In this document: positions 3,862 through 62,077 of the stretch, one piece after another
Numbering within the stretch: the first letter of the stretch is position 1
Layout of the letters: each line of letters starts with the position of its first letter
From: Spinacia oleracea
Taxonomy: Eukaryota; Streptophyta; Magnoliopsida; Caryophyllales; Amaranthaceae
Assembly: GCF_020520425.1 (NCBI RefSeq)
Contig: NC_079487.1
Coordinates: 125,262,385-125,326,384, forward strand
Length of the DNA: 64,000 bases
Direction of reading: 5' to 3'
The notes under the pieces: generated by a model
What the model was told of the DNA's origin: nothing
Database searches by the model: none
Seen by the model: the letters and a program-made list of their open reading frames with translations, nothing else
Position numbers and translations under genes: made by a program

Positions 3862-3941
<80 letters not shown>
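3862..3941. repeat. (TTA)n microsatellite, about 80 bp
   Basis: Uninterrupted TTA/ATT triplets. It has no retroelement beside it, unlike the AAT arrays at 44949 and 47846. Confidence 0.95.
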
Positions 3942-3942
<1 letters not shown>

Positions 3943-4705
3943 GAATGAAAAGAATAGCTAAAAGAACATATAAAATGAAGAACATGTCTATAGAGGAGCT
4001 AAATTTGGTAAAGCGACACCCCTAATATCCCCATCTATTGTTCTGTTTAGCTCTATCGGAAAAGTCCCAAAGAAATGAAGCTTGCAAACTTGAGTTACAA
4101 TGTGATGTGCAAACCAATTTGCCGTCATTTACCTTCCAGATAAATATGAATTACCTTCACCTCTAATCGTTTTGTAGAGAGATTCACTTTTTTTTTAGAA
4201 ATTGTACTACGTATTAGTTAATAGCTTAGGTGATACACCAGGCCACTTATCATGTATATTAAAATCATTTTTTCTACGGAGTATTTAAATTAAGCGCGCA
4301 GAATAATATGTATTTTAATTTAGTGTTAGTTTAATATTGAATTTTACTTATTTTTAAGCATAATTAAACACAACGTTACTCAATCAACTAGTAGTCAATC
4401 ATATATGAGTACATTCATAGTCGTATGACTTGTAACTTGTAAGTTATGAGTCATACAAAACATACCCCATTTCCTCCCCCCCATGTCTCGTTAAGTACAA
4501 ATGAAACAGCTGGTTTTGTTCATCAAATTGTGTCATCAAATCTTCAAACTGGAAACTACATGAATCTATCCATCCCATCGCAAGAATATGCAAGTTTTGA
4601 ATTATTGAGATGGTAAGGTCCATGAGTACACCATGAAACATTAATATTACTCCGAGAGCAACCCGACCGACGACCGACCTGCTTGCCAACTCTAAGTATG
4701 GAGCA
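3942..4705. other. Intergenic, no feature seen
   Basis: AT-rich sequence with short ORFs only; none has a recognisable domain or plausible splice context. Confidence 0.5.
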
Positions 4706-4785
4706 TTATCCTACCTAAAGTCCTAAACTATTAATGTGGCCCTAAGTCTCAATTTATGCCCAAGTAAAGAAAACAGGACGGGCTA
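4706..4785 (+). repeat. 80-bp direct repeat, left copy
   Basis: Matches 6592-6671 over about 80 bp with one clear mismatch. The two copies bracket the Helitron-like block. The right copy continues into the RPS13 promoter region, so it is probably the ancestral one. Confidence 0.85.
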
Positions 4786-6591: not shown

Positions 6592-6671
6592 TTATCCTAC
6601 CTAAAGTCCTAAACTATTAATGTGGGCCTAAGTCTCAATTTATGCCCAAGTAAAGAAAACAGGACGGGCTA
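6592..6671 (+). repeat. 80-bp direct repeat, right copy
   Basis: Partner of 4706-4785; it starts immediately after the Helitron-like CTAG terminus. Confidence 0.85.
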
Positions 6672-6837
6672 AGCCCAGATAAGAAATCTAATAAATCAGA
6701 GCCGTTCATCTCTAGGGTTTATCAATCAATATATGTTAAGCCTACCTTTTCGGTTTCAACCCTTCTCTGTTTTGTCTCAGTTGCTCTCTCTTCCTCGCTA
6801 GGGTTTTCCTCGCTCTATCTCCTCTCGTCGATCGGAG
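6623..6837 (+). promoter_or_regulatory. Distal promoter and leader-exon-like module
   Basis: Contains a site II element TGGGCC (6623-6628), a telo-box TAGGGTTT (6713-6720) and a second TAGGGTTT (6799-6806). A pyrimidine-rich leader-like stretch follows, ending at a good splice donor (GGAG/GTACGT, exon end 6837). Site II plus telo-box is the usual promoter combination of plant ribosomal protein and snoRNA genes. No coding exon follows before RPS13, so it may supply a non-coding first exon for RPS13 or be a leftover 5' end. Confidence 0.55.
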
Positions 6838-17650: not shown

Positions 17651-18598
17651 ATTAGACTCTTTTAATTAGGTTTGCCCATCTTTTAACCCAAAAAAAAATT
17701 AGCTAAAAATATCAACATTTCAAGGTCAAGCAATATTCCCAACAACTAAAAAACCCCAAAATAATCCCAGAAACTAGAAAATCATGAATCTAGGCCAAAA
17801 AAATCCCAACAAATAAAAAACCCCAAAATCTTCACTGTATTATTATTTTTTAGCACAACTGAATTCCTAATTTCATTGTAGAATGCTTAACTGTATAATG
17901 CTATTGGGCATTCGACTTCTTGTTAATTTTTATCTTCTAGTAATAAGCCTTGTTTATGAAATTCACGACAACAATCCGTAGCAGCCGCAATCACATCACG
18001 ATGCTACCCCAAATTTGTGCGAAAATACCAATTGAATAACCAAAGTCGAATTAATCGCCAAAATCCAAAAACAAGGTCGATTAATCGCCAAAATCCAAAA
18101 ACAAGGTCCAATTAATCGCCAAAATCCAAAAATTATGATGAATTTATGAAATCATAGCTAACAAACTTCTCAAAATGCAGAAGTTTTCCAAAAAAATTCC
18201 GAAGAACAGACGATAAATCAAAAAATGAAACAATAATCAAAGAAATTGTGAAAATAGTCGATAAATGTTACCGTTGTGAAAGAAATTGCCGAAGAACCCA
18301 ATGTTGATCGGAAAATCGACGAAGATGAAGCTTGAGATCGGATCGAAATTCAACAAAGAGAGGGGAAGAGGAGAGAGGAGAGGGAGAGAGATGGAGGCGG
18401 CAAGAGAACAAAGAGAAATTTGAGGGGAAAGGTAAGGGTTACTGCAGGTTTTAGAGCAGAAATAAAGTAACGGATTTAGTTACCCTTAATAAACGGTAAC
18501 AGTTACCAAATACGTACACCAAACAACTAGTAACGTAAACGGTTACTTAATTCCGTTTCCAGCTCCAAAATTCTTCATACCAAACATGCCCTAAGAAT
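17651..18598. other. Intergenic with a 30-bp triplicate and an outward leader-like stretch
   Basis: Contains three tandem units of about 30 bp (ATTAATCGCCAAAATCC..., 18050-18133). On the minus strand a pyrimidine-rich, 5' UTR-like stretch spans about 18290-18425, followed by TTACC/GGTAA-rich sequence ending near 18595 with TTCATACCAAACATGCCC. This could be one half of a transposon that picked up a gene leader. Confidence 0.35.
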
Positions 18599-24855: not shown

Positions 24856-26273
24856 ATGGATGGAGAGGATCTAGGTCCAAATAAACCTCCAGATGATTCT
24901 CTTATGGGGGAAGTGGGTTTGTCAGAAGGAAGGCTCATTGAAGTTGAGCATCAGGAATCAAAGAAAAAATATCAAACCTTTAGAGAGGCGGTGGCATCGT
25001 CTTCTCAATGGTTTGAGGATGCAAGAAAGATAGTCTCTCAATCAAAAATTGGGAGGATGTGGAGGATATTCCACCAGAGGGGGATTTGGTGGTTCAATTC
25101 AATAAGGTAACACTGGATAGGTTAAGAGCTCCATGGAAGCTCACTTTAATGGGTAAGTGTATGGGCTTGAGTGTTAAAGCAAATTATATGGAAACAAGGG
25201 TGAGAGCAATGTGGCGAACGAAAGGAAATTTAGAGGTTATTGATCTTGGAAAGAATGTTTTCTTTTACAGATTTGCATGCCAGGATGATTATGATAAGGC
25301 TCTGTTTGGGGGTCCTTGGTTCATATTGGATCATTATCTAATGATTTCAACTTGGAAACCAAATTTTAGGCCATCGACTAATACGTTTGACCATATGTCA
25401 GTTTGGATTAGGTTTTCAGAATTGCCCGTCGAATATTACGATAAGGAGGCTCTGTTTGATATAGCAAGAGTCGCCGGAAAACCAATACGGGTGGATTATG
25501 CAACGGATAAGATAACTAGGGCTAGATATGCTAGGGTTTGTATTGAAATAAATTTAAATCAGCCTCTAGTCACTAAGATCTGGGTGGGTGGAGCTTGGCA
25601 AGGGATTGTGTATGAAAATATTAGCTTGCTGTGTTTTACATGTGGAAGAATTGGGCATGAGAGGAAAGATTGTGAGGAATTAAGGGTTAATCAGAAAGAG
25701 GTGGACCGGGTTCATGAGGATTTTCAAGGGAATCATAAGGTTGGTAGGTTACAAAAAGAAATAGAGAGTGAGGAGGTTAGCCCATTAGTGACGAATGGTA
25801 ATATGGGTTCAAAGGATAATAAGGGTTTAATTGGGCCAGATGAATATGGCCCATGGACTTTGGTGGTTAATAAAAGGGGAAACAGGGGAGGGCTGAATGG
25901 AAACAAATTTCAGAATTTGGGTTATAGGGGTTCTAATTCCAAAATTAATGAATATAGGGCTGGCAACAATTTGGTTAATGCGAATTCAAAGCAACAAACA
26001 TGGTCCAATTTGAGGAATTCTAAAGGACAATTGGTTGCCCAATGGGGGAAGATTAATTCATCGGCTAATTCAAAGTCACAAGGTAAGATTAATGAAGGAA
26101 ATATTTTGGCTGGTTCAACAAGTAAAGTTTTAAATGGTGGAAATAGTTTAGAGATCCACGTGTTGAATCCTATTGAGCAAGTGGTAGTTGGGGATGATTC
26201 AGCTACTCCCTTTTTACCTTTGAAATTAAATACAGAAGTGGTAACCCAAGTCGCAATCAATCACAATGCATGA
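24856..26273 (+). pseudogene. LINE ORF1: nucleic-acid-binding protein with zinc knuckle, frameshifted
   Basis: Translation starts at MDGEDLGPNKPP (24856). The frame changes by one base within the A-run at 25044-25048: upstream ends ...RKIVSQSK, downstream continues NWEDVEDIPPEGDLVVQFNK. The middle region (about 25110-25560) resembles DUF4283, the RRM-like domain of plant L1 ORF1 proteins. A CCHC knuckle CFTCGRIGHERKDC lies at 25632-25673. The C-terminal third is Asn/Gly/Ser-rich. This protein would coat the LINE RNA. The stop TGA at 26271-26273 overlaps the next ATG (ATGA). Confidence 0.85.
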
Positions 26274-26881
26274 ATTCAGCTCCAGCGACGATCACGTATC
26301 AAAGGAGAGGGCGACAAGATTGGGTGCAAAGGGGGCCGAGAGGCAGCATCAATCACCGGAGGGAGAGGGGGGACAAGCTTCCAGCAGCAACAATCCATGG
26401 AATTACTCAACCTCTTCCCAACGTCACCATCGATGAACCTATGTTCGACGGAGAGGGATCGCATGTAGAGCCCAAATCCTGCATGGCAGCCTCTGAACAT
26501 TCTGGAGTCCTTGCAGAGGAGGGAAATAGCTCAAGTTCGGAGGCCCGTTCCGTTGAGGCCAAGGAGAATGTCGTTTCAACAATATCTAGGTTTCAGAAGT
26601 CCGCCGCCACACCCGGTGCATCGAGAAGAGTTTCCGATAACACCCTTGCTGTTCGTCACGGAAGGAGTAGACCTAGCTCGTTCAGATCGCCCTATCGCCA
26701 TATTTCAGACTCAAGAGGAGGTGGTAGGAGTTCAGATAGAGGCTCTGTTCTATCAACCATTCCAGAATCACAACAGGATTTTCACGTCCATCTCTCCGAT
26801 AAGAATGGCGGATGTGACTCTGATGGGAATGGCGGAACAATGGAGGGATTGGGAGGAATTTTATCTTCCCCTGGCAAGTGA
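26270..26881 (+). CDS. Small LINE ORF between ORF1 and ORF2, 203 codons
   Basis: Starts at the ATG that overlaps the ORF1 stop as ATGA and stays open for 203 codons, ending 52 bases before the likely ORF2 ATG (26934). The product is rich in Ser, Arg, Gly and Pro, basic, and has no recognised domain. It could be a separate protein made by stop-restart translation, or the original C-terminal extension of ORF1 displaced by a frame change. I cannot choose between these from one copy. Confidence 0.5.
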   Translation: MNSAPATITYQRRGRQDWVQRGPRGSINHRRERGDKLPAATIHGITQPLPNVTIDEPMFDGEGSHVEPKSCMAASEHSGVLAEEGNSSSSEARSVEAKENVVSTISRFQKSAATPGASRRVSDNTLAVRHGRSRPSSFRSPYRHISDSRGGGRSSDRGSVLSTIPESQQDFHVHLSDKNGGCDSDGNGGTMEGLGGILSSPGK

Positions 26882-26933
26882 ATTGGGTGCAGTACCGTCA
26901 GTTACTTTGCAACGCCCATTACCCAATTTAGGA

Positions 26934-29900
26934 ATGAAGGTTTGCTTATGGAACGTGAGAGGTGCTTCGAGGGATAACTTTATTCCCCATGCTTGGATTA
27001 TTGTGGAAGCTCAAAGGCCAGCAATTTTTATTTTACTCGAAACAAAAAGTGAGGAGTTTAGGGCTCGTGAGGTCATGAATCGTCTTCGTTTTGATGATTT
27101 CCGGGTGATTCCGCCGTCGGGGAAGCGAGGAGGAATATGGCTGTTTTGGAAGAAGGAGGTGGATGTGATTAATTATACTGCTTCAATTAAAAAGTTCCAC
27201 GTTCTCTTTCACTTTAAGAATGTTGGTAGGGAGGCTCTGGTTACGGGTTTGCATGCTCCAAGTGTGCCCACAAGTAGACATCGTATGTGGCGTGATATGC
27301 AGCAGAATCTTCCACCACATATGATGCCTTGGATGATGATGGGGGATCTGAATGAAATTACGAGTCAAGCAGATAAAGATGGTGGCAGACCGTTTAGGTC
27401 GTCCCAATGCAGGGATTTGTCAAACTTTGTGGATGCAGCGGGTTTAATTGATCTGGGCTATAATGGTTGTCCATTTACGTGGACAAATGCTAGGGATGGA
27501 GCAGCATTGATTAAGGAGCGGTTGGATAGAGCGCTGGTTAATTCTCCATGGTTGCAAGTTTTCCCCCACACTAAGGTACATCATCTTGCTCGTACATATT
27601 CTGATCATGCCCCTATTATAGTTTCATTAGATAATCCTAGGGTTTGTGGTCCTTTTCCTTTTCGTTGCAAGGAAGTCTGGTTAGAACATCCTGATTTTTC
27701 AGCTTTTTTTGTTAATAATTGGAAATCCCCTAATAATTCGTTTATTCAGGGTAGGGATCGATTTTTAGCTAATATTGGTTCTTGGAATCATAATATTTTT
27801 GGAAATCTTTCTCAAGCTAAAAAACGTATTCTAGCTCGTATTAATGGGATTCAAATTGCTTTGGCTAGAAAACAATCTCCTTTTCTGGTTAATTTAGAGA
27901 AAGAACTTTTATTCAAATTAAATGATATTCTAAAAAAAGAAAAAATTATTTTGGCTCAAAAGGCGGGTATTAATTGGCGTAAGTTTGGGGATTATAACAC
28001 GAAATATTTTCATATTTTGGCCAAAATCAGGAAAAGTAAAGGAAATATTTTGACTCTGAAAAATGATAAGGGGGATTGGATTACTAATTCTGATGAGTTG
28101 AAAAAATTAGCCACTGATCATTTTAGGAATATTTTTCAAACTACTCATTCCTATAGCTCTAATTTAGTGGCACAGTTGAATAGAATTCATGTTTCAGAGG
28201 ACGAAAGGAAGTTATTAGTTAAAGAAGTTTCTATGGAGGAGGTTAAGGTAAACTTATTTAACATGGATCCCATTAAGTGTCCGGGCCCGGATGGAATTCA
28301 GCCTATCTTTTTCCAAAAACATTGGGGTTCTTTGGGTGGGGTCATTTGGAATTTTTGTAGGGATTGCTTTAATAATAGCAATATTCCTATTGATATAAAT
28401 AAATCTTATATTTCTCTCATCCCGAAAAAGGATAATCCGTCAACTATTACGGAATTCAGGCCAATCGGATTATGTAATACGATTTATAAGCTGGTAACTA
28501 AGATTATTTCTACTAGGCTTAGGAATATTTTAAATAGATTAATTAGTCCCCTGCAATCTAGTTTTATAAAGGGTAGAGGAATAGAGGATAACGTCATCTT
28601 GATTAAGGAGGTTGCTCATGTCTTTCATAAATGGAAAAAAGGTAAAAAAGTGTGTGCGTTAAAATTGGATCTTACCAAAGCTTATGATAGCCTAGAATGG
28701 AGTTTTATCCATGAAACTTTAATGAGTTTTAATTTCCCTGCTTCTTTGATTAAGTTGATTATGTGTTGCATCTCTACTTCTACTATCTCAGTTTTATGGA
28801 ATGGTGAAATATCGTCTGAATTTTGTCCCACTAGGGGTATAAGACAGGGGGACCCTCTTTCTTCTTATATATTTGTTTTATGTCTAGATAGGTTGTCTAC
28901 GTTGATTGAGGAAAAGGTTCGTTCCAATAGTTGGAAACCTTTGAAATTAACGTCTACTATTAGTATTTCTCATGTTTTTTGTGCGGATGACGTATTTTTA
29001 TTTGGGGATGCCACCATTGATAATTTGGGTGTGATTATGTCAACTTTGGAGGAATTTGGAAATAGGTCAGGTCTTCGTGTTAATATGCAAAAATCTTCCC
29101 TAATTTTTCCTACTAAAATGTGCCACTCAATTAGGAGAGAGTTGTCGGCTCCTTATGGATTAGCCTCTGGTTCGTGTTTTGGTAGATATTTGGGTGTAGA
29201 TATTAGGCCTCATAAGTTAAAGATTTCAAATTTTAGGGGTTTATTGGATAAATCTTTGGAGAGAGTGAAGGGTTGGCAAGATAAGTTGTTGAATATGGCC
29301 GGAAGATGTACTTTGGTTAAATCGCTTTTAAATACGTATCATTTATATTCTATGCAGACTTCTCTTTTGCCTAGTAGTGTTCTTTGTACTCTTGAAAAAG
29401 GGTGTCGGCGGTTTTTATGGAATAAGGTTGATAGCCCCCACTATATGCCTAGAACAAGTTGGCATAATGTTACTAAGCCTATGAATATGGGGGGGTTGGG
29501 AATTCGTAAATTAAAAGAATGGAATTTGGCGTTTATGGCAAAGCTAGGTTGGACCTTATTAAATAATTCAGAAAAATTGTGGGTTCGGGTTTTTAAGGAA
29601 AAATATCTTCGTAAAACGGCTTTTTTGGATTGCTTTCCGAGTTCTAATCATTCCCCGATTTGGAGAGATATCCTTAAGGGACGTGATGTTTTGAAAAAAG
29701 GTCTTATAGTGGGAATAGGAAATGGTAGGACAGTTTCTTTGTGGTATCATCACTGGGTAATGGATAGGCCGTTGTATCTTTTAATGGATAGGGAGATTCC
29801 GGATTCGAAAGCCCATTGGTTTGTTAGTCATATTATTAGGGATGGGTCTTGGTATCTGAATGATATTGATCATTTAATTTCGAAGGATATTCAAAATGCG

Positions 29901-31286
29901 ATTTTAGCAGTTCCTCTGGCTAGAAATCAGAATCAAGAAGACTTTTTAAGATGGCGATTTTCAACTAATGGGTTATTTAATATTAAATCTGCTTATTTCT
30001 CTCAATGTGCTCCTTTCTGGAACAGTAATGTCTCTAATTTCACTGGCTGGAAACAGTTATGGAAGCTAAAGTGTCCTTTTAAATATAAGATGTTATTGTG
30101 GAATTGTGTCCATGAAATTCTTCCTGTAGCTGAAAAAATTTCTGCCTTTATTCCAAATTTGTCTTCAGTTTGTGTCAGATGTGGTTTGCAATGTGAAAGT
30201 CATTTACATTTATTTAGGGATTGTTGTGAATCAGGAATTGTTTGGAATTTTATATTCCAAAGAGTAAAATGCTCAAAGAACATTAACTTGCACAGCTTCT
30301 TTAATCTTACCTGGCATGATTGGATTGTGTTTAATCTGTCACAATCTTAGGAGTGGAAAGTCTTATTCTGTGTTACTATTTGGCATGTGTGGAGATCTAG
30401 GAATCAGGCTGCCTTTGATTTAAAGATGAAAAATGTTTTCTCAATTTACAACTCTTTATTTGCGGATTATGCTGCCACTAATCATATCTTGCAGGGTAAA
30501 GGAAAGGGTAAATTGCCAAGGGCTGAGAAACTGATGAGGGCTTGGAAAGCACCATCTGATGATTTCATGAAACTCAATACTGATGGGGCTTGGAAGGCTA
30601 TTAACTCAGCTGCAGGGGGTGGTATTTTTAGAAGATCAAGTGGCACATGGTCTCTGGGTTACTCAGGAAAATATCATGCAATAACTCCTTTAGCTGCTTA
30701 GCTTTTGGCACTTAGAGATGGGTTAATTCTTGCAGAAGAGTATGGCATCAGCAAGCTAGAAGTGGAAATTGATGCTCTTTCTTTGAAAGTGATGCTAGAC
30801 TCAATGGATCAAACCTATCATCATGAATTGTCTCCATTGTTGAATGATGTGGTTAGTTTGATGACTAAGTTTGAGTCCATTAATCTAATGCATATCCCCA
30901 GAACTTATAACACAGTGGCACACAAGTTGACAGCTTTTGGGTTAGCTATGGATGAGAGGCAGAAGATCCATTTGGTGGTTCCAGATTGGGCTCAAGAGGC
31001 ATATGAAGCGGATTTGAGAATTTTCTCTCCTGTGGTGGGTGTTGAGGATCCTTTTCCTCCTTTGGCACAGTCAAGTGGTGATATTCATAATCAGATTCCA
31101 GAAGAGATGGATACCAGTGAGGATGTTATAATGTTTGGTACAATCGCTGCTCCTATGAGGAGGGCAGATGATGCAGCATTAGCAGCAATTGGAAAGGGTA
31201 AAGCAAATTTGGGACATGAAGGAAATAACAGCAAGAGCAACGTTCAGAAGGTTGGTGGCATCAACATTGTAAATGTTAGAGAGTAG
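26934..31286 (+). pseudogene. LINE ORF2: endonuclease, reverse transcriptase, RNase H, two in-frame stops
   Basis: I take the start as the ATG of MKVCLWNVRGA (26934), where the APE-type endonuclease begins; the frame is open further upstream but that part reads through the overlapping small ORF. Motifs: GDLN and SDHAPII in the endonuclease; CPGPDGI, KLDLTKAYDSL, GIRQGDPLSS and CADD (catalytic Asp pair present; C in place of the usual F before ADD, near residue 683) in the reverse transcriptase; a zf-RVT region with CVRCGLQCESHLHLFRDC; RNase H with LNTDGAW. In-frame TAG codons lie at 30348-30350, before RNase H, and at 30699-30701, where the family has the catalytic Glu region (A-E-L-x-A-L). 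The second half of RNase H and a tail follow to 31286. Confidence 0.88.
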
Positions 31287-32549: not shown

Positions 32550-35500
32550 ATTTTTTTTATTTTTTTTGGCAGCTCATAATAAAGAAGGAGGGAATTAGGC
32601 CTGCTTTCTAGCATGGGTAGCTAGAACGTGGGCTCTCATAACAAGTGCCCTGCAGACCTTAGTTACAGAAACAAAATGAAAAGAAGCAGCTATACTACGG
32701 ATATCATCTAACAATAGTACAATCTCTCTAGGGGCAATATATGGGGAACGAAGTGCCCTTACAAGCACCTCTGAATCTGTACGAACACGCACAGAACTTG
32801 CCCTGTTGGGCGTATCTCACAGAGCCAATAGAACAACCATTGCTTCTGCTTGGATTGGAGATGAAGCAAGGACCTTTTGGGCACCTGTCTTTATCTCCAC
32901 ACCACTTCTGCTAATTCTCCAACCTGCTGCAGCCGACCATCTACCATCCCCGTAGTCCCCCTTACACTTCCAAGCCCCATCAACCTCAATGAGAATCATG
33001 TCACCTTGCGAATGCACCCCCACCTGCCAGCTCCAGGCCTTGTTCGGGCTGGTAGTGGTGATTCGCACCTTGTCATTCAGACAATGCGAGACCTCCCACC
33101 TGCTCATCCATTGTCTAGCTAGCTCAAGTACCGTTACTGCCGAAGCCTTGGTACCTTTAAAAACACATTCATTACGATGGAGCCAAATGCTCCATAAAAT
33201 CGAAGAGAAGAAAACCACACGATGCCCCGAGTTTCCATCCTGATTCAGAAAGTACAGCAAGAAATTTTTCACCCAACTTCCCACATGAGTTTCTACTGCA
33301 GCTAGCCCATTAATCCCAAGAGAACACGACTTCCACACTCTCATGGACAGCTCGCAGTCCCGAAACAAATGGGCCAATGACTCCTCCTTACCACAAAAGA
33401 CACAAGCGGGCGAAACATCAATGTGCCTTCTCCTTAGATTCTGCTTCGTCGGGATAGCATTATTGATAACCTTCCAAATAAAGATTTTCCACTTTGGGAA
33501 CATATTGGCTTTCCACCACAAAGACCAGAATTGAGAGACGGTATTTTCTTCCACTTTTCCTGTATTCTTGTGGAACCAGTACCCTGATTTGATGGAATAA
33601 GCCCCCGTACTTGACTGACTCCAATCCCACCCATCCTGAGTACCCCGGTTCGAAGTATGAATAGCAAGGATACGACGCGCCGTGCTACTCTGAAAGAGGC
33701 TCCAGACTGAGCTAGCATTCCACGAGTGGTTGCTGCATTTTAACTCCGAGACCCAAGTGGGCTTAGTACCAACAAAGGAAGAATGCTCCTTGAACTTTAT
33801 TCTGTTGTCACCCACCCACACGTGGTCAGTTATGCTTGTAGCTTCTCCATTTCCTACAGTTCTTCTTATTCCACCCTTCATCGAGCTAACACTTTTCATG
33901 ATACTCCTAGCTCCCCACGAGGCTGCATTAACTCTTCTACCAGAAATGCTATTCTCAAACCAGGTGCTGGGGTATTTCCCGCTGAAAACTCTACTCACGA
34001 GAAGATTCGGGCATGTTTTCATTCTCCAAGCTTGGTTGAACAACATGGCATGATTAATGGACTCTATGTTTCTCATACCGAGCCCACCTAAGCTCTTATG
34101 CTCTTCTAACAGGGAGGATTTCCTCCAATAAATTGGCCTTTTCGCCATTGAAGCCCCCCACTAGAATTTGATAATCATGGAGGAGATCTTTTTGTGAACG
34201 CTCCTTGGCAGTAAGTAAATAGCAAGAATGTGAGAGGCCATGGCCACAAGAATACCATTTATTAGGATCAGTTTACCTGCCGGAGACAAGTGGATAAACT
34301 TCCAGTTGGTGAGCCTTTTAGATACTTTTTCTGCAATATTCTAGAACGCCACAGTAGACCGCCCATCAATGTCCATGGGGCAACCCAAATAAGTGCCCAT
34401 TTTATCGTTACTGTTGACCCCCAAGACTCTCCGAAGAATTCGTTTAAAACGTGGGTGAGTGTTGCCCGAGAAAACAACGAATGACTTCTGTAAATTGACT
34501 ATTTCGCCCGACAAAGAGAAAAACTGATCCATATTACCTTTCAAAATAGCAAAGTTGTCGATGGAAGCTTTAACAAAGAAGAGGGCATCGTCCGCAAAAA
34601 ATAAGTGGTTGATATACGGAGCACGTCTCCCTGCCTTTAGCCCCACCAGGGCCTTACACTCTTGGAGAAAATCAAGCTTCCGGGCCAGCACTTCCATACA
34701 GAGAATGAACAGGTAAGGGGACAGGGGGTCCCCTTGCCTTAGCCCCACCTGAGGAATAATTTTCCCCGTGGGCTCACCGTTGACCAGAATAGAATACGAG
34801 ACCGTCGAAACACATTGCAGTAGCCATTGGATCCAATTAGCTGGGAAGAGCATCTCCTCGAGAACTTTTCGTAGAAAATCCCACCTTACTCTGTCATATG
34901 CCTTATTTAAGTCAACTTTGAAAATTGCCGCCATAGAAGCTCCCTTCTTCTTTCTGATGGTGTGAAGAATTTCGTGAGCAAGAAGACAATTATCGGACAT
35001 TGCACGTCCCGGGACAAAAGCATTTTGAGTATCTCCCACCAAATCTTCCACCACTTTCCTTAGTCGCCGGACCAAGCATTTCGATATGATCTTGTAGGTA
35101 GTGTTGCACAAACTAATAGGCCGAAATTCTGAGACCAATTCCGGCCTATCCACTTTGGGGATGACCGTTATGAAAGTTTCATTCATCTCCTTCAGCATGA
35201 ACCCGCTACTAAAAAAACTCATAGCAGCCATTTCAACATCCTTGTGCACCATTTCCCATTTCTGGTGGAAAAACCCCGGTGGGACACCGTCCGGGCCGGG
35301 AGATTTGAAGGCTTTGATACTGAAGGCGGCCTCCTTGATTTCCTGTAATGAGAAAGGAACATTGAGAATAGAAAAATGGTTAGCATTAAGTTGTTTCATT
35401 GGCGGTTTCCAAGAGTCCCACTGGAGGGAGATATCTCCAAGTGGAACAGATGGGATAAATAGATCTTTGTAAAATCTGAAAAATTCAGCCTTTATCTCAC

Positions 35501-36144
35501 TGCCTTCATATAACCAATCCCCCTGTATGTTCTTGATAGCCCGAATATCGTTCCTGGATTTTCTATCCTTCACACATTTGAAGAAAAAGGAAGTTCCTTG
35601 GTCTCCCAACTGATCCCATTTCGAACGGGCCCTTTGTTTCCAGAATGTATTTTTCATTATCACCTCATCTTGTTTTTCTTTTCTTAACACCGCATCTGCT
35701 CGCACCATACTATTCACCGTTGGGTCTTCGTGATTGGCCATAAGATCAGTCTGAATTTTGTTCCAGTCAATACGCCTCTCATCTTTGAAGTCTAGGCACC
35801 ATTTCTTACAAGATCGAACCAGAAACCGCAATTTCCTTTGCAGCACAAACATTGCTGAACCTGACGCTTCATACTCCCAAGCCTTCGAAATAGTATCTCG
35901 TGCCTTCTCTGAATTGAGGCACCACTGTTCTAGCTTATACGGTCTCTTCTTTGGAGTATAGTTGGGGGTACAATCAACTACCACTGGACTGTGATCTGAT
36001 AAAAGAATAGGTAGGTTCCAAACCATCGCATTAGGGTACACCACCCTCCAATCTGAAGATGCATAGGCACGGTCAATCCTCTCCCATATGTTTCCCCCTT
36101 CCTCTCTATTATTTGTCCACGTGAATCGAGCCCCGTGATAGACC
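32550..36144 (-). mobile_element. L1-type LINE, 5'-truncated, at a duplication junction
   Basis: Minus-strand element with its A-tail as the T-rich run 32549-32567. ORF2 spans the body. The 5' end falls in the endonuclease domain (VYHGARFTWTN at about 36145-36115). Its 3' end joins RPS13 copy 2 and its 5' end joins the left edge of the second full block, so the flanks are not one target site and no target duplication is seen. Confidence 0.88.
32595..36144 (-). pseudogene. LINE ORF2 relic: endonuclease (end), reverse transcriptase, zf-RVT, RNase H
   Basis: One frame throughout, with in-frame stops at 34341-34343, 34161-34163 and 32817-32819 (plus coordinates). Domains in order: endonuclease end with FTWTN and LLSDHSPVVV; reverse transcriptase with KSPGPDGVPP, KVDLNKAYDRV, GLRQGDPLSP and FADDALFF; zf-RVT with CVFCGKEESLAHLFRDC; RNase H from IEVDGAWKCK to VRTDSEVLVRAL. 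The three stops are single-codon changes in otherwise well-preserved sequence. It is not functional. Confidence 0.87.
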
Positions 36145-36606
36145 TCGTGGTGAGAATTTTGGCAGCTAAAGGTGTTGAGGGACCAACCTCACCCTATTTC
36201 GAAGTTATCTCTAGCTATCTGAATAAAGTATATGGTGGGGTAGGTGTTAAATGACCGGGTAATGATGTAGATGATAGGGGAGTATTAAGTGGGTATGACT
36301 ATCGAAATAAAGCTAGAGAGGAAGTGAATACATTTATGTTTGACCTGAATTGTGAAAGGGGAAGAACGTAAATTTATCTATGTACTTATTTATTTATTTT
36401 GAATTTGTTAAATAAATAAAACACGGAATGAAGGCAGTAACAGATCTATCCATCATTAGTTTAATAAGGAGATTACCTATAACCTCCATTTTGATGATAA
36501 GTGTCTATAGTTAATTTAGAGATGCAAATTTAATATTCATATCACAATTCGTGCATCGCACGGGTACTATACTAGTTATCCTACCTAAAGTCCTAAACTA
36601 TTAATG

Positions 36607-42452: not shown

Positions 42453-44948
42453 GAGTTAATCACATTGTATGAAGACTAACAACTATTGTTTGGAGGTTGA
42501 GGAGTTGGATAATCAGGCAAATAAGATGGAGACATCGTTACTACCTCATAAATATGGAGGATAATGCTTGAATGGTTATAAATCCTGTAAAATGGTCTCA
42601 TAGCCTTAAACACACATGTATATATCGTATATCATAGCCTTGATTGTTCAGACACATCGTCCATGCAAAAATATTGTGATTAAGGAAGGTAGAGCATGTA
42701 AGTGTGACACAACTTCTGTACATGTGCTCGCAATTACGTGTTCCTCTCCCTATTTTTAGTGGAGAAAACTACACTATAATATTTGTATGATGTAAAGTAA
42801 AAAATGTGTAAACAAACCCATGGGTTAATTATCCATATACTTACATGGAATAAAATGAAACATCCAATAATGTCATTTTCCGCAATGATAGTCTTGATCT
42901 TATGTTGATTTCAGACAACTTAGTGGAGAAGGATTTGTGTTGACTTTATCAGTATCAAACTACACACAGTTACTGCTCAATCTCTGACATATAACAAGAC
43001 AAGTAAAAGATAAAAAAAAAGGCCCAAGTTTAGATCATACTTCGTATATAATACTAAAAATTCATCATATTTCAGTCCACACCTCCACAATACTATTTGC
43101 TCATATAAACTTTCTCCCAAGAAATGCGACTATAGCAAGTACTTCTTAATAAGAAACACTATCAGGAGATTAAATAATGCAACAATAGAGACACTAAATA
43201 ATACATAAATCCATACCTTAAATAATGCAATACCTCTTAGTTTAATTTATAAGCATGAGTTTTGAATATTGGGGATATTCCTTGAGCTCAACTCGGCTAA
43301 CACCTTTAACAGGAGCCACACCATTGGCAATGTTTAATAATATATACCTGGTGCCACATTTTAAAATTGTGTCAAGCGAAGATCTCGGGGCTAAAATGAT
43401 GTACATAACCGCTTAACTAAAATGTACAGAACCATTGAATGTTCATGAAAATTAGTGCTATCTAAGGCCACCTAAGATAAAAAAAATTACCCCTCATATA
43501 TTTCTTGTTATGAAGTCCTGCAACATAAAATATATACATGAAGTGAGACATCCTATATACAGGGAGAGGACATAATACATTCTCTCCTATTGTAAGAGGC
43601 CTTAAAGTAATTAAATAACATAATACCTCAAAATAAGTTTAATCCCACAAAAATAAACTTATTTTGTCAGTTGAGTAGGCATTAACTATCCTCATTGTAG
43701 AAAAGTATATAGAGGTAGGCTTTTGCAGACCTCAATAAGAAAATACATCATGGGAAAGAGATCCAAAAGGAAATCGAATGACTATAAAGACAGGTGAGGC
43801 GTGGACAGTTGACAGAAGTGTAGGGGAATACAGTTAAACGTAATAACATGTGTAAAAACAATCCCCAAAGCCAGGAAATATGTATAAAGCACAGATTAAG
43901 CAAACTTACATTCGAAGCGTATTTGAAATTCACCCAGATTTTATAGATCATTATTTTATTTAATTAAATAACCTAACATATATATTGGAGGAAACTAAAT
44001 ATATGATAGTCAACAAACTGAATGTAACTTTTGGTTGATATAACACATCTCTACCTCGAGGAGGAAGTACAAATACATATCAGATATGTATGGGGAAATA
44101 CATATCAGAACATAAGACAAAATAGGAAAAAGGACAAAAAAATAATTAAATGGTACTTTTCTAAACACAAAGGAGTACTTTTTTTTTACAGAATGGTACT
44201 TTTTTTTACAGAATGGTACTTTTTTACATGAATGGTACTTCCTTTTTTATCTTTTAGCTATTTGTCTTTTAGTTGATAGGTGTATTTCCACACATATCAG
44301 ATATGAGAAAAAACGAACCCCTACCTCGAGCCACCACTATCCACCACTGCCTCCTCCCCTCCACCATCAAACTTTCACCATCCCCTTCTGTCAAACCACC
44401 AGTGACCACTACCTACTCCATCAAACCAACATCCAACACCGACTCTACCTCATCCGTCAAATGTCACCACCTCTACAAATGACACAAAAACAACAACCTG
44501 GAATTTCAAGGATGTATCTCCATTAAACTCCAACCTTGATCTATTCACATCCAGCCGAATTAATGTGGATATGATTTTGATTTTTTGGAATTCATATTAA
44601 AATGAAAATGATTATAAATAGTAGTATTAGCGTTAATGTAATAAATCGCTATTTTGCTGCAGATTACTGTTTGATTAATACCAGAAGCTAATGGCTTGAG
44701 CCTTTTTACTCAAAAAAAAACATGTCATAAATCACTATTAAAACTGATTATATTCAAATTTATGCAGTTCTGCTTACAAATAAATGAAAACAAAATAAAT
44801 TTTACACTTATTAATTCATAGTTACAACTTACAAGTAATAGTGCTACGTAGTAGTTGTAATAATAACTTTTTGTAATACTTACCTATAAACAACAGAAAC
44901 TAGACAGAATGATGGAGCTAATAACAACCACAATAATAATAAGTAGAA
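42453..44948. other. Intergenic, no gene seen
   Basis: AT-rich sequence with short ORFs lacking domains. Near 44140-44240 a short motif (AATGGTACTTTTTTTTACAG) is repeated about four times, and around 44065-44110 ACATATCAGA is repeated. Confidence 0.45.
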
Positions 44949-44986
<38 letters not shown>

Positions 44987-45005
44987 TAATAATAATAATA
45001 ATAAT
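44949..45005 (+). repeat. (AAT)n microsatellite, 5' side of retroelement
   Basis: AAT triplets with one GAT interruption, ending exactly where homology to the retroelement coding sequence begins. Confidence 0.95.
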
Positions 45006-47800
45006 TTTTCTTTTGATGTTGCTCTTCTAGACACTTTATTGTCTAAGCGGTTGCGTTCTGTGAAATCCATTCCTCCTAAATGCCGTTTGGGTTTTACGCA
45101 AGTTCTAAAAGGGGTGCTTGATAAGGTGATTTGGAGACCAGATGACATTGCTTGTTGGGTTCAGTTGCTCGTGTTACCTCTTTGTGTCCTGAAGACTTTT
45201 TCTCCGCGAAGTAATCGTGAGTGTTCCTCCGGTGTTAGGCGGCGACTACAGGAAGAGAGTATCACCTCTGCTATTCGTTCTTGGGGTGTGCCTGGTGGTT
45301 CTGAGCAACTTGTCATAGACACATTGGCTAGCGTGTCTCCCCCTCTATTGGATGTTGACAAAGACCATGATTTGGCGGAGCGTAATATTAAGCAATGTAA
45401 GGGAAAGATTTCTGACGGTCACTACACTGCTGCCGTTAAAGTTCTTTCGTCCTCAAGTCTTGCCCCTTACAATGATGCTACTCTTGCAGATTTGCAAGCA
45501 AAGCACCCTTCAGTTCCGGTCCCTACCTTACCGGATATCCCTGCTGATCATCACCTTACTGCTTCCTTTGCTGTTGTGTTGGAGCAGATTAGGGGATTTC
45601 CGAGTGGTACGTCGTGCGCGCGGTAGAGATGGCTTGCGTGCTCAACACCTTTTGGATTGCTTGGGTGGTGCTGCTGTAGCTGTTTCTGATGAGTTGGTGG
45701 ACTCTATCACTCAGGTAGTTAATCTCTTTCTTCCTGGAAAGTGTCCTGCTGAGCTTGGAGGATATATTTCTAGTGCTCCTCTTACGCCACTTGTTAAGCC
45801 TGGTGGTGGTATTCGGCCTATTGCTGTGGGCACTATTTGGAGGCGCCTTGTTTCTAAGGTCGGGGCTGCTGTGATTGGTCCGCGTTTAGGGAACTACTTA
45901 GGAGGGCTTCAGTTTGGAGTTGGGGTTCCAGCAGGTGGTGAGGCCATTCTCCATGCTGTCAATCGTTTGGTTGAGGCTCGTGGGGCCGATGTTGGCCTCT
46001 CTATGTTATTGGTGGATTTTCAGAATGCATTCAATTTGGTTGATCGATCGGCTTTGTTGCGGGAGGTTCGGCTACATTGTCCTACTCTTTCGCGTTGGGT
46101 TGAATTCTGCTACTCCTCTCCAGCGCGGTTGTATTATGGGGAGCATACCTTGTGGTCTTGTCAAGGTGTGCAGCAAGGGGATCCTCTCGGCCCTTTGCTA
46201 TTTTCTTTGGTTCTACATCCATTGGTGTGTCGAATCAGAGACTCTTTTGATCTATCTCTTCAGGCTTGGTACTTGGAGGATGGCACTATCGTTGGTGACA
46301 GTTTAGTGGTTGGAAAACTCTTGGAGTTGATTTTGGAGGAGGGTCCTCATTTAGGTCTCCATGTTAATGTTGAGAAGACAGAGGTTTTCTGGCCTTCGAA
46401 GGACCCACGCAGTCGTCTAGAGGGTGTCTTTCCTACGGATATTGCTCGTCCTGCACTTGGTGTTAAGTTGCTTGGTGGTCCAGTCAGTACGGATTCCTCT
46501 TTTTGTAAGGAGTTGGTTTCGCGACGGGTGTCGAAGACTGTTGTGTTGATGGATGCTGTAGCTAAGCTTAATGATCCCCAGTGTGAGTTGTTGCTTCTTC
46601 GTGCGTGCACTGGAGTTTCTAAACTCTACTTTGCTATGCGCACTTTTCCGCCTCATCTTTTTGAAGCGGCTCAATTATCTTTTGATGTGGCTCTTCGGGC
46701 TTCTTTAGAGCGTATCGTGACTGCTTCGGGACCTGGGTTCGGCGACTGGCAATGGCGTCTTGCTACCTTGCCTTATTCTTATGGAGGATTGAGTGTTTAT
46801 TCAGCTGGTGATGTTCGGCATTATGCTTTTCTTGCATCCCGTTTGCAGTCTTCTGGTTTGCAGGATTTGCTTCTTCGGCTTTCAGGTGTTGTTGGTCCGG
46901 GGTCGGCCTTTGATGATGCTCTTGGTCTTTTCAATAGGACCGTGGAGACCGACCTTATGAGTAGCCCTAGTGAGATCGCTGCCCCCACTCTCATGAAGAA
47001 ATTGGCAGACATATATTTCACGAAGGTTACTGCTGATGCGGAATTCGCCTACTCCTTATCTTCTCGTCATGTTGCCCTTTGGAAATCACAGCAGGGGGAT
47101 CACTCCTCAGCTTGGTTGCGGGCAGTCCCCATCTCGGGTTTAGGCCAGACTATAAACGGTAAGACTTATCGTTCGGTTCTTAATTTGCTATCGGTTGGGT
47201 ATTCCGTTGTTCTCTGATTCGACGTCGTGTTCTGCTTGCTCTCGGGTTTTCGATGGGGACATTTATGGGGATCATGCCGTGTCTTGTGCTGGGATTGTGG
47301 GTATTAAACATCGACATAATGTTGTTCGTGATACCCTTTTGGATATTTGCTATTGGTCGGGGATTTCTGCTCGCAAGGAGGTTGATGTTGGGCTGACTAG
47401 TGAGAGTGATGGAGCTCTTCGTCCTGCAGATATATTGCTTTATTCTTGGGATGGCGGTGTAGATGTGTGTGTTGACTTGACTGGGTCTTCCCCTATGACG
47501 CAATCTGGGTTGTCAGACTTCGTTCCGGGTCGGGTTGTGGCGGTTGCTGCGCAGCGGAAGCAGGCTATGTACGCGGCACGTTGTAGGGCTTTGGGTTACG
47601 GTTTCTTTCCTTTTTCCTTCTCTTCTTTTCGGGAATTAGAGAAAGGGGCTGTTTCGTTGCTGAAGCGGGTCCAGACGTACTCCAAGGCTCAAGACATTGG
47701 GGCACGGGCAGCTGCCTACATTTTCAGCAGGATCGGGTTCGCCATAGCTAGAGGAGTGGGGGCCCGGATTGTGTCTCGGCTCCCCACCAACTTCTTGTAG
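45006..47800 (+). pseudogene. Reverse transcriptase / zinc knuckle / endonuclease-like polyprotein, two frameshifts
   Basis: The frame opens in the microsatellite (FDVALLDTLLSKRLRSVKSI) and shifts by one base near 45615, between SGTSCA and GRDGLRAQHLLD, and again near 47190, between RSVLNLL and LGIPLFSDSTSCSAC. Domain order: an N-terminal region (45006-45610) with WVQLLVLPLCVLK; a reverse transcriptase (about 45610-46420) with GGIRPIAVGTIWRRLVSKV, LLVDFQNAFNLVDRS, GVQQGDPLGPLLFSLVLHPL and WYLEDGT; a C-terminal CX2CX11HX3C knuckle (CSACSRVF...DHAVSC); then RPADILLYSWDGG...CVDLTGSSP, resembling the catalytic core of restriction-like endonucleases. Motif C reads YLED where YLDD is expected. From memory, proteins with GVQQGDPLGPLLF and this C-terminus occur in animals, fungi and oomycetes; the plant clade name I cannot give. 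Confidence 0.75.
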
Positions 47801-47845
47801 TTTACTTTATCTTTGTAGCTTGTTAAGCTTGTTACGTTTTGGTGG
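45006..47845 (+). mobile_element. Non-L1 retroelement with C-terminal restriction-like endonuclease-like domain, inside (AAT)n
   Basis: A 2.84-kb segment with (AAT)n on both sides in the same orientation (44949-45005 and 47846-47905). It encodes a reverse transcriptase followed by a CCHC knuckle and a PD-(D/E)xK-like region; there is no APE-type endonuclease upstream and no poly(A). Only about 45 bases separate the stop (47798-47800) from the 3' AAT array. The coding frame is already open at the 5' array, so the element looks 5'-truncated. This layout is that of endonuclease-site-specific non-LTR retrotransposons (R2/R4/Dong-like organisation, by analogy), not of plant L1. GC content is well above the surroundings. 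Confidence 0.75.

Positions 47846-47905
<60 letters not shown>
47846..47905 (+). repeat. (AAT)n microsatellite, 3' side of retroelement
   Basis: About 20 AAT triplets directly after the short 3' UTR. Confidence 0.95.
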
Positions 47906-48155: not shown

Positions 48156-48230
<75 letters not shown>

Positions 48231-48469
48231 TCGTACCTGTTTTATATATACTCGTACCTGTTTTGATCTTTACGGTTTATATATATATAAAATATACGTA
48301 GTATATATATATAGGTTTACAATCGCCCCAAGCCGGTCCTGTCCGGGTTTTACAACAATTTTCTGGTCCGACCTGGATCTGGTCCAAGCATAACCGGTTC
48401 GGACTTCAAGTCTTGGATAATCAAATTTCTGGGCTTTGATCTGGTCCAATTTTGGACTAATGATCACCC
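47925..48469. mobile_element. hAT-like MITE, 545 bp, with internal (TA)n
   Basis: A perfect 8-bp target duplication TATGCAAG lies at 47917-47924 and 48470-48477. The left end is TAGGGGTGTG and the right end reads GATCACCC; GGTCC/GGACC motifs cluster near both ends as in the element at 11106. The middle has a (TA)n run (48159-48229) flanked by inverted copies of GGTACGA/TCGTACC. There is no coding sequence. Confidence 0.85.
48159..48229. repeat. (TA)n microsatellite inside the MITE
   Basis: About 35 TA dinucleotides. AAACAGGTACGA stands on the left and TCGTACCTGTTTT (twice) on the right, so the arms could form a cruciform. Confidence 0.9.

Positions 48470-52930: not shown

Positions 52931-52966
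<36 letters not shown>
52931..52966 (+). repeat. (ATT)n microsatellite in the bHLH 5' leader
   Basis: Twelve ATT units about 60 bases before the start codon. Confidence 0.93.
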
Positions 52967-57952: not shown

Positions 57953-60900
57953 CTAAATAGTGCATTTGCTCTTCCACCAAATCTGGTCATTTGTGCTAGA
58001 TTGCTTAGCACCTATATGAGCTAATCTGTCAATCACACTCCTCTGAATGCATCTGATAGTAGTTGAAGGAGTAGGAACCTTCTGATTCCAGAGAGCATCA
58101 TTTCTTGCTCTCCATAGAGTATACACAGTAGCATTGACAGCAGTGTGTATTGCTGTCTTTTGAAATTTGCTGCACTGGCTCTTCCATTTAACCCACCTCA
58201 GCAGGCCCATATAATGTACTTTGCTAGTAGGAATATCTAGCCATTCCTCAACCCCCTGTAGACATCTTCTACTGTATTCACAGTCAAAGAAAAGGTGTGA
58301 GTGAGTTTCATCTTTTGCCTCACAAAGCAAGCATGTAGTAGTGTTACAGACCCCAATCTTATGTAGCCTTTCTCTTGTTTGCAGTCTCCCTTGGACCATC
58401 AGCCAGCAAATCACTCTAGTCTTGGGAATAGAGGCTCTATTCCACACTGCAGATCCCCAAGGGACCTTCTCATGCTGTTGAACCAACTTCTGATATACCT
58501 TCTGGATAGAGTATTTAGGCATTTGATCCAACTCAGCCTCACTAAACAAACCCTTTAGTTTCTCCTTCACACTACAAATCTTTCTCCAGTACCAACCACT
58601 ATCAGCTTTTGGCTGATAATGCCACCAACCTGCAGTCTTAATGTAGATTGCATTGACCCATCTAACCCACATTGTGTCCTGTTTTCTGGCTATAGCCCAA
58701 ACATATTACCCTAAAGCTGCAATATTCCATGCCTGAACTTGCCTTATTCCTAATCCCCCTTCCTTTTTAGGTCTGCAAACTCTATCCCAGGCAACATAAC
58801 CTGGTTTAGAACATAAGTAAGTGCCTTGCCATAAAAAGGCTCTACAGATAGCTTCAACATTTTTAAGCACATGTTTGGGAAGGATAAACACTTGAGCCCA
58901 GTAAGAGTGGATGCTTAAGAGGACTGAATTGATAAGAGTTATCCTTCCTGCAAAAGACAAGTTCCTAGAACTCCAAGTCTTGATTCTTGCCATCATTTTA
59001 TCAACTAATCCTTCACAATCAGCATTAGTGATTCTTTTAAAGTAAATAGGAACCCCTAAATGAAGGAAATAATGCCCTAGGTCCAAGTATGCATTCTATG
59101 TTAAGTCTAATAAATGCGGTTCAGTATTAATTAACAAGTTAATAATTCAGTGAGATCAAGTGAGCTGAATGCCTAGCTAGAGGCCGCTTCAGTTCAAGTG
59201 GAATTAATGATATTAATCCACAGCTTACTCTTGACTGAACCCGTAGGGTCACACAAATAGTACGTAAACGGATCAAGTATTTAATGGCATTAAATACTCC
59301 ATCTATGAATATTCGGAACCGACGGATCTTGGTTTCAGTGGGAGCTAAGATCGTCACAGGCAAGAAATGAATACTCCGGAAACGATGATATTGCCGGAAA
59401 CGGAAATATGGATCGTATCGGAAATATGAATATTATCCAAGTCGTAGATGTTACCGGAAACGGAAACATGGTACGTATCGGAAAATATTATTGGAAATGG
59501 AAATATTACCAGAATCGGAAATATTGCCGGAAACGGAAATATTGTCAGAATCGGAAATATTGCCGGAATCGGAAAATAATTCCGGAAACGGAAATATTAA
59601 ATATTTGTTCGAAACGGAAATTAATTCCGGAATCGGAAATATTAAATATTGTTCGTATCGGAAATAGATTCCGGAAATGGAAATTTAATCGGAAGCGTAT
59701 CGTACGAATTAGCATCGGACGAGGCCTGCCGGACGAAGGCCCAGCACGAAGCCAGGCCGTCGCCCAGCAAGCACGCACGCCACAAGCCCAGCGCGCGCCA
59801 AGGCCACGGATGCGTGGGCCTTGCTGCGTGGGCTGCAGCTCGCACGCATGGGCAGTCCTTGTGGCTGCCGTGTGTGTGTGAGTTTGTGCTCATGCGTGAT
59901 TCCTGAATCAGCAAGAGTCAGTGTATGATTAAATGTCTATTCCTAATTGGATAAATTAATTAAATAGAATTCATGTAGGATTCTAATTCCAATTAATTCG
60001 CATCCTACTAGGATTACGATTCCTTTTCCATAACTCTATAAATAAAGGCCTAGGGGTCATAATTTATATACAAGTTTCAAAGTATTCAAAAGTGAGTTTT
60101 TTGAGAGAAAATTAAAACACATCTTGCTCATAAAAGTGCCGAATTTTCTAGTACCTTAAGGGCGATTCTAGTTGGTCAATCTTAAGGCGGATCCGGACGT
60201 GCTGTGGACTATCTACGGAGGGACGACACTTGGAGTCCTAAAAGACTTGTTCTTGTTCGGTTCGGGCGCAGCTAGGGAGGGCACGCAACAAAGAGTATGC
60301 ATCTAATTATGCTATATGATTATGTGTAAATAATATGTTTCCTGGGTTAATGGTTGTTTCCGCATGATCTATGTAAATGTCATATGTATCATAACCTAAC
60401 ACTAAATACCTAAAGGGAAAAGAACCCAAGGCAAACCCAGAAAAGTCCACTACCTGCTGAACTACCTCTGGTTTCATACCAGCACAATACACAGCTGACT
60501 TTTGAATGTTAGCCTTCAGACCAGAAGTGTCAGAAAAAAGTTTGAAACCTTGGAGAAGCAGCTGAATAGAGTGAAACTCACCTTTGCAGCATAAGATGAG
60601 ATCATCTGCAAAGCAGAGGTGAGTCAAATTTGTAGACCTACACCTTGGATGAAATTTAAAGCAGCTATCCTCACCCACCTTGTATAGAGTTCTAGACAGA
60701 TATTCCATACATACTACAAACAATAAAGGAGACAAGGGATCCCCTTGTCTTAACCCCCTGCTGGAAGCAAAATATCCTTGGGCTGAACCATTTAGCATGA
60801 TTGAGAATTTGGGAGTTGTAACACAAACCATGATCCAATTAACAAACTGAGCTGGAAATCCCAAAGCAAGCAGCATCTCTTCCAAGAAATCCCACTCAAT

Positions 60901-61380
60901 TGTGTCATAAGCTTTCTGCATATCTAATTTGATCAAGCAACCAGGTGATGCATTCTTCCTTCCATATTGTCTGACAATTTCTTGACACATCATTATGTTA
61001 TGCATGATAAATCTACCATGCACAAAGGCCCCTTGATTCTCAGCTATCAACATAGGTAGCACACATTTCATTCTCTCACAGAGGATTTTTGTGATGCATT
61101 TATAAATTACATTGCAACAGGATATGGGCCTGAATTCAGTAACATTTTTTGGACATTTTGTCTTGGGAATCAGAGTGATAGTAGTGGAATTAATCTCTTT
61201 TAGGAGTTTTCCAGTGTGGAAAAAGTCCAGAACAGGCTTTGTTACATCCTCCCCAACTATGTTCCAGTTTTCTCTGAAAAAATGGCTCCCAAACCCATCT
61301 GGGCCAGGGGCTTTGTCACCATTAATAGAGAACATAGCATACTTGACTTCCTCATTAGTGACAGGGGCTAATAATTGGTC
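57953..61380 (-). pseudogene. LINE ORF2 relic: reverse transcriptase and zf-RVT, interrupted
   Basis: 61380 to about 60407 encodes the reverse transcriptase with KAPGPDGFGS, EFRPISCCNVIYK, KLDMQKAYDTI, GLRQGDPLSP and FADDLILC. The frame is cut by the LTR insertion within FRYLGVPIY and resumes at 59055. An in-frame TAA lies at 58706-58708 (plus coordinates), within NIAALG-YVWAI. The zf-RVT part has CLLCEAKDETHSHLFFDC. The frame ends at 57953 with no RNase H motif. Confidence 0.87.
59061..60401. mobile_element. Solo LTR, 1341 bp, of an LTR retrotransposon (fossil)
   Basis: Starts TGAAGG and ends CCTAACA, with a perfect 5-bp target duplication CTAAA at 59056-59060 and 60402-60406. No internal gag/pol region is present, so it is a solo LTR left after recombination between LTRs. 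It contains a long stretch of loosely tandem GGAAA/CGGAAAT motifs (about 59395-59690) and a GC-rich part. Superfamily was not assigned. It is younger than the LINE it interrupts; the intact target duplication suggests moderate age. Confidence 0.9.
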
Positions 61381-61408
61381 TTTCTGCAGTTGGGCTTTGT
61401 CACTATAA

Positions 61409-62077
61409 ATTTTTATTTATAAGTATATTTGATGAATTTGTTTGTGTTTCTTAAGAGTTTTAATTTCCTGCAACAAATTTTCAAAAGGTTATAAACGAGT
61501 TTTAATTAGATATTTAGATGTATATGGACAAACCAATTTACAACCAAATTTAAAACGAGTTGTGTATAAACAATTTACAAGTCAAAAATAAAATCGTTGG
61601 TCTTTAACTTACTAGTTTTGACCGTATTTGTTCACGATTTGTAAACGTATGATAAATAGAATATTATTCACGCGGAAAGAATCGCGTCATCGGTGAGAGA
61701 AAGCGCAGATGAAGAACTTGACCATCGCCGTTAAAAAATTAGCGAAGGCCTAACCAGTCAGAAAATTCGATACAAGAAAAAGGAAAACAAAATTCAGGGG
61801 AAGTTCTTCGAACTTGAAAATCCAGAACTTCAACCCGACCTATTCAAGCAGGCGATCGACGAACGTGGAGTGAGAGAAAAATGGGGGGTGAATCTTTTGG
61901 AATCCTCACTCATTTTTGAACAACAAACATCCTTTCATCTTCTTCCTCATTTTTCGCAATTCAAAAAGAAATTGAAAATTTCCCCAAACAATTCCGCCAT
62001 TGTTGAATTTTTTTGAAGCAGAAGAGATTTTTGAAAATTAGGGTTGTAAATTTGAAGGATAAAAGCGAGGGCGGGAG
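61409..62077 (+). other. Upstream region and 5' UTR of the ALA3-like gene
   Basis: AT-rich up to about 61650, then a more balanced, leader-like stretch leading to the start codon at 62078. Exact transcription start unknown. Confidence 0.5.

Follow-up and report, generated by a model that had tools for sequence, protein, structure and literature searches.

The 64-kb window of Spinacia oleracea DNA analyzed here (the whole stretch, to which all positions refer unless a locus is named) contains a single copy of a 2.84-kb retroelement at positions 45004-47845, placed between two (AAT)n arrays of one strand (44949-45003 and 47846-47905, both on the plus strand). The upstream array consists of (AAT)12 at 44949-44984, one G replacing an A, and (ATA)6 at 44986-45003, about 18 units in 55 bp, and is immediately preceded by degenerate AAT-rich DNA at 44932-44948. 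The downstream array, 60 bp long and on the same strand as the upstream one, is composed of 20 perfect units in the ATA register, (ATA)20. The coding part and this array are separated by just 45 nt of 3' untranslated sequence (47801-47845, plus strand), which carries no poly(A) at its end and passes, as ...TTTTGGTGGA, directly into the repeats. The predicted fold of 47791-47866 was no better than that of shuffled sequences (z -0.62), and the 64-kb window held no Rfam match at gathering scores. The bracket of (AAT)n in the same orientation and without poly(A), which the original prediction had described, is present. Both element ends adjoin AAT on one strand, and the insertion of this copy into an AAT array is well supported. 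Outside the arrays no duplicated flank was found (70 bases on each side gave a local score of 12, equalled by 719 of 1000 shuffles), and because both ends of the element lie in repeats, a target-site duplication is unreadable. The element also stands out by its GC content, 0.49 compared with 0.32 and 0.30 in the 2-kb flanks. Shortly 3' of it, a (TA)36 run and, after it, two copies of TATATATACTCGTACCTGTTT occupy positions 48158-48264; elsewhere in the window, tandem arrays at 59454-59688 are built of units like CCGGAAACGGAAATATTACCAGAATCGGAAATATTG, which we take to resemble repeats of the spinach/beet family.

The coding capacity is spread over three open pieces on the plus strand. The N-terminal piece (45004-45626), covering the region before the reverse transcriptase (RT) and the start of the RT, is open up to the array and has no in-frame ATG; the middle piece (45628-47182) encodes the RT, thumb, and linker and matches Pfam RVT_1 (E 2.9e-12); and the C-terminal piece (47186-47800, with its stop at 47798-47800) encodes a zinc knuckle and a restriction-like endonuclease (RLE). 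Two frame breaks separate them, one near 45605-45626 between the N-terminal piece and the RT and one near 47180-47195 between the RT and the C-terminal piece. At the RT active site the element reads YLED (46270-46281, plus strand), a position at which all seven relatives introduced below carry [FY][LM]DD (YMDD, FLDD, or YLDD), so that the substitution is probably inactivating. Given the frame breaks and YLED, the copy is probably dead. The N-terminal piece aligns to approximately residues 240-433 of the relative L004 (local score 97, compared with 66 for the best of 200 shuffles), which has two C2H2-like fingers at residues 149-214, upstream of the part kept by the spinach copy. As the fingers further upstream are absent, the copy is 5' truncated, which is frequent in LINEs. 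The persistence of long open frames might alternatively indicate a host gene derived from a retroelement, but the two frame breaks, the YLED motif, a first piece without an in-frame ATG, and a microsatellite at both ends make this reading highly improbable.

Relatives were gathered by scanning genome contigs with a degenerate QGDPLGPLLF pattern, which retrieved nine loci. Seven of these, with tblastn E values from 1.4e-15 down to 2e-63, code for relatives of the RT, namely, L005 (2e-63), L004 (4e-63), L007 (7e-31), L010 (3e-30), L008 (3e-23), L011 (1e-17), and L009 (1e-15); the remaining two, both Silvania loci, do not (RT tblastn E 0.14 for L003 and 0.09 for L006). Only L005 (7e-13) and L007 (5e-4) among the seven were also found by tblastn with the C-terminal piece at E 1. 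These relatives represent fewer than seven lineages, with L004 and L005 being near-identical and L009 and L011 close to each other. All seven sit on contigs labelled as bacterial metagenome-assembled genomes, and we infer that these contigs are eukaryotic and were binned wrongly. Six of the relatives have open reading frames (ORFs) of 1078 to 1841 aa, and L007, which contains masked stretches, was read as two pieces. A loose C2H2 pattern detected two fingers in L004 and one in L008. In L009, L010, and L011 the N-terminal part had none, L011 being interrupted by the end of its contig; L005 and L007 lack an N terminus that this comparison could use, and the truncated spinach copy has no finger. 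Other searches were less productive: direct protein searches of viral contigs and of genome contigs yielded no relative, a protein search of phages gave no match and one of plasmids a single group II intron RT (E 3e-4), and NCBIfam returned only a group II intron RT model at 26 bits against a cut-off of 300. Likewise, the QGDPLGPLLF scan found no stretch in viral contigs, and none of 58 viral loci with a WYLDDGT pattern was a relative at E 1e-3. In angiosperm databases, proteins like those of the element are presumably common under the name "uncharacterized protein."

Two of the relatives showed features of their own. In L005, positions 3277-3363, soon 3' of the ORF, correspond to the zinc-finger coding region of a second copy, with 85 of 87 bases identical to L004 947-1033; this arrangement is either a tandem, head to tail, whose second copy is truncated, or a join made during assembly. 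A Utopia family is reported to have tandem copies (PMC4640811). In L008, a 933-aa ORF (3963-6761, minus strand) with a gag-like knuckle, CRTCGEAGHSAAKC, lies upstream of the RT ORF; it has no Pfam match at E 0.01 and may be the first ORF of the element.

The C-terminal piece bears the residues expected of a LINE endonuclease. A CCHC knuckle at 47228-47287 (plus strand; C-x2-C-x11-H-x3-C, wider than the published x7-8) is followed by an RLE core at 47312-47476 (plus strand) with RHN at 47312-47320, E at 47378, RPAD at 47420-47431, and D at 47474, and the succession of knuckle and RPAD that had been read from the C terminus is thus found as described. The overall spacing is C-x2-C-x11-H-x3-C-x8-RHN-x19-E-x13-RPAD-x14-D. 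Further downstream, KQAMY (47558-47572, plus strand) corresponds to the catalytic-lysine motif K-x2-K-Y with its less conserved second K changed. The residues outlined in passages of two reports on LINE endonucleases are CCHC, RH, PD...D/E, and a displaced catalytic K in K-x2-K-Y, the second K being less conserved (PMC5678591, PMC12857005). The GXW motif, also given in a passage of PMC5678591, is absent from the element as written, and neither the published strict REL motif spacing nor its FoTeR form matches. A relaxed RLE residue pattern matched once across the window in six-frame translation and never in 200,000 shuffles (1 of 200,000 for the core without the knuckle); as this pattern was written after the sequence had been seen, the independent relatives are the better test.

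Aligning the spinach C terminus with those of the seven relatives (eight rows, L010 being cut by its contig end) revealed six invariant columns, C25, H40, C44, H54, E75, and D107 in the numbering of the spinach piece, which correspond to three knuckle ligands (C, H, C), the histidine of RHN, and the core E and D. All seven rows that reach as far as KQAMY keep its K, and three of the seven keep its Y; the first D of RPAD is conserved in only 5 of 8 rows. Searched against the PDB, the combined eight-row profile matched the R2 C termini of 9nl3 (E 1.1e-4) and 9dou (R2Tg; E 1.4e-4) over an alignment spanning CCHC, RHN, E, PD, and D; the next match was a caspase-11 construct at E 0.013, and R2Bm was not among the matches listed. 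A profile made from the seven relatives only scored the spinach domain at 69 bits, where the best of 1000 shuffles reached 4.4, and R2Tg at 23 bits, compared with 0.9 bits for the spinach domain alone against R2Tg, so that the RLE identification runs through the relatives. Predicted structure models had mean pLDDT values of 34 and 37. Taken together, the residue alignment with the relatives and the profile matches to both the spinach domain and the R2 C termini uphold the proposed restriction-like endonuclease. The absence of an APE endonuclease likewise holds: at E 1, Pfam shows no Exo_endo_phos in any of the three open pieces of the element, which is weak evidence by itself because the copy is 5' truncated. 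Among the relatives, L004, L008, L009, L010, and L011 (the five searched, L005 and L007 being left out) have no Exo_endo_phos at E 0.01, and L004, at 1410 aa, has RVT_1 as its only Pfam match at that threshold.

The RT profile of the family matched R2 at 3.5e-23, L1 at 8e-19, and bacterial group II or retron-type RTs at 2e-6. In phmmer comparisons, R2 and L1 scored 48-92 bits against each other and 8-33 bits against the element, whose own best score, 40 bits, was to a group II intron RT that was included in the trees as the best plasmid match. For reference, the trees included fragments of R2 and human L1 taken from PDB alignments, four L1s of the window, and two group II intron RTs of plasmids. 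An initial 11-row tree, built without the relatives, placed the element outside R2+L1 with a support of 88/93, and here neither a grouping with L1 (AU 0.050) nor one with R2 (AU 0.107) was firmly rejected. Once the seven relatives were included (18 rows, 253 columns), R2+L1 formed one side of a branch supported at 98/98, and membership of the element in L1 (AU 2.9e-16) or in the R2 clade (AU 2e-78) was rejected. The grouping of the element with its family reached 72/93, with a program warning of long branches meeting, and holding the whole family with R2 (AU 0.048) or with L1 (AU 0.044) was borderline. The RT thus is unlike the L1 type, as claimed at the outset, and the R2 and L1 part of the tree proposed there places the element outside both. 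The idea of an ordinary plant L1 or RTE element could draw on the abundance of L1-type elements in the window; it conflicts with the rejection of L1 and with the presence of an RLE where the L1s of the window have zf-RVT/RNase H, and we regard it as highly improbable. On the basis of these sequence comparisons, the element is best classified as a LINE of the RLE type whose lineage lies outside R2+L1. The likely home of this lineage is CRE; CRE, R4, NeSL, HERO, Dualen, and RTE had no rows in the trees, and the element is set beside CRE by architecture and depth, as taken from descriptions. With good confidence, therefore, we view the locus as a 5'-truncated, now inactive copy of an RLE LINE whose lineage branches outside R2+L1 and resembles CRE in architecture and depth.

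How might such a copy have come to lie within AAT repeats? A passage of PMC10499050 treats target-primed reverse transcription as established for R2-type proteins with the same domain order. Most simply, the endonuclease would have nicked one strand within a preexisting AAT array, exposing a 3' end on the (ATT)n strand that would then have served as primer for copying the element RNA from its own 3' end. Synthesis would have halted short of the 5' end, with the loss of the zinc-finger region, and joining of the new end to the array upstream would account for AAT repeats at both sides.

It is tempting to speculate that the lineage prefers AAT arrays in general, by endonuclease specificity, by annealing of the RNA end, or by both, as Dong does with TAA repeats. 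Consistent with this, both element ends abut AAT on one strand. The statement that Dong uses TAA repeats agrees with a passage on primers in PMC3774820, in which TAA stands upstream of Dong on its sense strand, matching the repeat and the orientation found here. In addition, 4 of 5 RLE clades are mostly target specific, and some HERO families target microsatellites, according to a passage of PMC4640811. On the other hand, this is a single copy that was noticed because of its flanks, and a scan for perfect repeats of at least 18 bp found an AAT array in none of the seven relatives. Their flanks are short (DNA 3' of the ORF amounts to about 187 nt in L004, 124 in L005, 72 in L007, 6 in L008, 607 in L009, 0 in L010, and 597 in L011), and the target of a plant branch need not be common to them. 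On balance, we consider a general AAT preference a tentative reading that falls somewhat short of an even chance.

Two other accounts of the flanks have to be weighed against this preference. The element might have inserted by chance into a microsatellite, having no target preference at all; HERO, for instance, includes many nonspecific RLE elements, as a passage of PMC4640811 notes, and the window offers two further AAT-type arrays. These, at 3862-3939 and 52931-52966, are the only other AAT-type runs of at least 5 units, though, and account for 114 of the 61,158 bases of the window minus the element (0.19%, or 0.37% with the bracketing arrays), so that random landing there would be rare; we judge chance possible but somewhat doubtful. 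Alternatively, the 3' AAT run could be the tail of the element itself, and the 5' run could stem from a short AAT-rich target that was expanded later by slippage. The I factor, for example, ends in TAA repeats. The perfect 3' array starting directly after the short 3' untranslated region and the degenerate AAT-rich DNA upstream would suit this account, but the 5' array is about as long as the 3' array, which a tail alone does not explain, and the account would entail AAT tails on copies at non-AAT sites as well; we hold this origin to be rather unlikely.

In the open-access literature searched, RLE LINEs of plants appear only as survey labels in passages of two papers (PMC6337768, PMC8729191). 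The first, a spinach repeat survey based on MGEScan-nonLTR, reports 642 full-length CRE LINEs and 22 R2 in the passage on its Table 1, which has no L1 row; the second, a plant transposable element atlas, mentions one CRE in soybean in the passage concerned. The spinach count means either mislabelled L1s or many RLE-type LINEs that went unremarked; on the strength of the Table 1 passage, we consider the CRE label doubtful and mislabelled plant L1s the likely explanation. The suggestion that such a plant lineage was not known to be described is uncertain: the literature covered contains no paper on a plant RLE LINE, and the spinach survey does attach the labels CRE and R2 to 642 and 22 elements, respectively. 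RLE elements with known targets come from animals, oomycetes, an amoeba, fungi, and trypanosomatids, as far as passages of PMC4640811 and PMC12857005 list them, and Utopia is assigned in the former to Amoebozoa, SAR, and Opisthokonta, plants not being included in that passage.

With an RLE lineage of plants outside R2+L1, this old LINE type would be known from a wider range of hosts. More speculatively, and in our view more probably wrong than right, flowering plants may harbor an RLE-LINE lineage of deep origin that predates the separation of R2 and L1 and is common to other eukaryotes, with a plant branch that homes into AAT microsatellites and a Dong-like target choice that arose independently. 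If true, AAT arrays in plant genomes could be seeded, interrupted, or spread by elements of this kind. If the element does target AAT, it would provide a plant example of a microsatellite-dwelling LINE and a system in which to separate endonuclease specificity from RNA-end annealing.

Among known systems, the nearest at hand are the plant-type L1s of the window, of which there are at least four (13846-17661, minus strand; 25017-31286, plus; 32817-36188, minus; 57953-61416, minus). Of seven L1-type ORFs, four carry zf-RVT, one RVT_3, and one Exo_endo_phos, and the domains found among the L1s also include DUF4283, which like zf-RVT is typical of plant LINEs. Each L1 ORF span lies at least 4,987 bases from the nearest AAT array. 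The L1s share with the element an RT and a zinc knuckle near the C terminus. The RTs of the L1s, unlike that of the element, fall together with human L1 and R2. The "CRE" LINEs of the spinach and soybean surveys are similar in being plant LINEs with an RLE-group label from software or repeat libraries; the survey passages give them as labels only. Dong, of the Dong/R4 clade, also has an AAT/TAA repeat beside the element on the sense strand. The R2 clade (R2Bm, R2Tg) has the same order of RT, linker, CCHC, and RLE, and its C termini are matched by the family profile, but the RT of the spinach element falls outside R2 and the element has no rDNA target. In architecture, the element resembles the CRE group (SLACS, CRE1/2, MoTeR, FoTeR), in which the RT is followed by a C-terminal CCHC and a REL endonuclease and the REL motif has RHN and an AD variant replacing PD (PMC12857005, in the passage on this motif), the RPAD of the element resembling RAD. 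The knuckle spacing differs, x11 in the element compared with x6-8 in the CRE group, while the residues and their order match, and the deep position of the element relative to R2 and L1 is a further point of likeness to this group.
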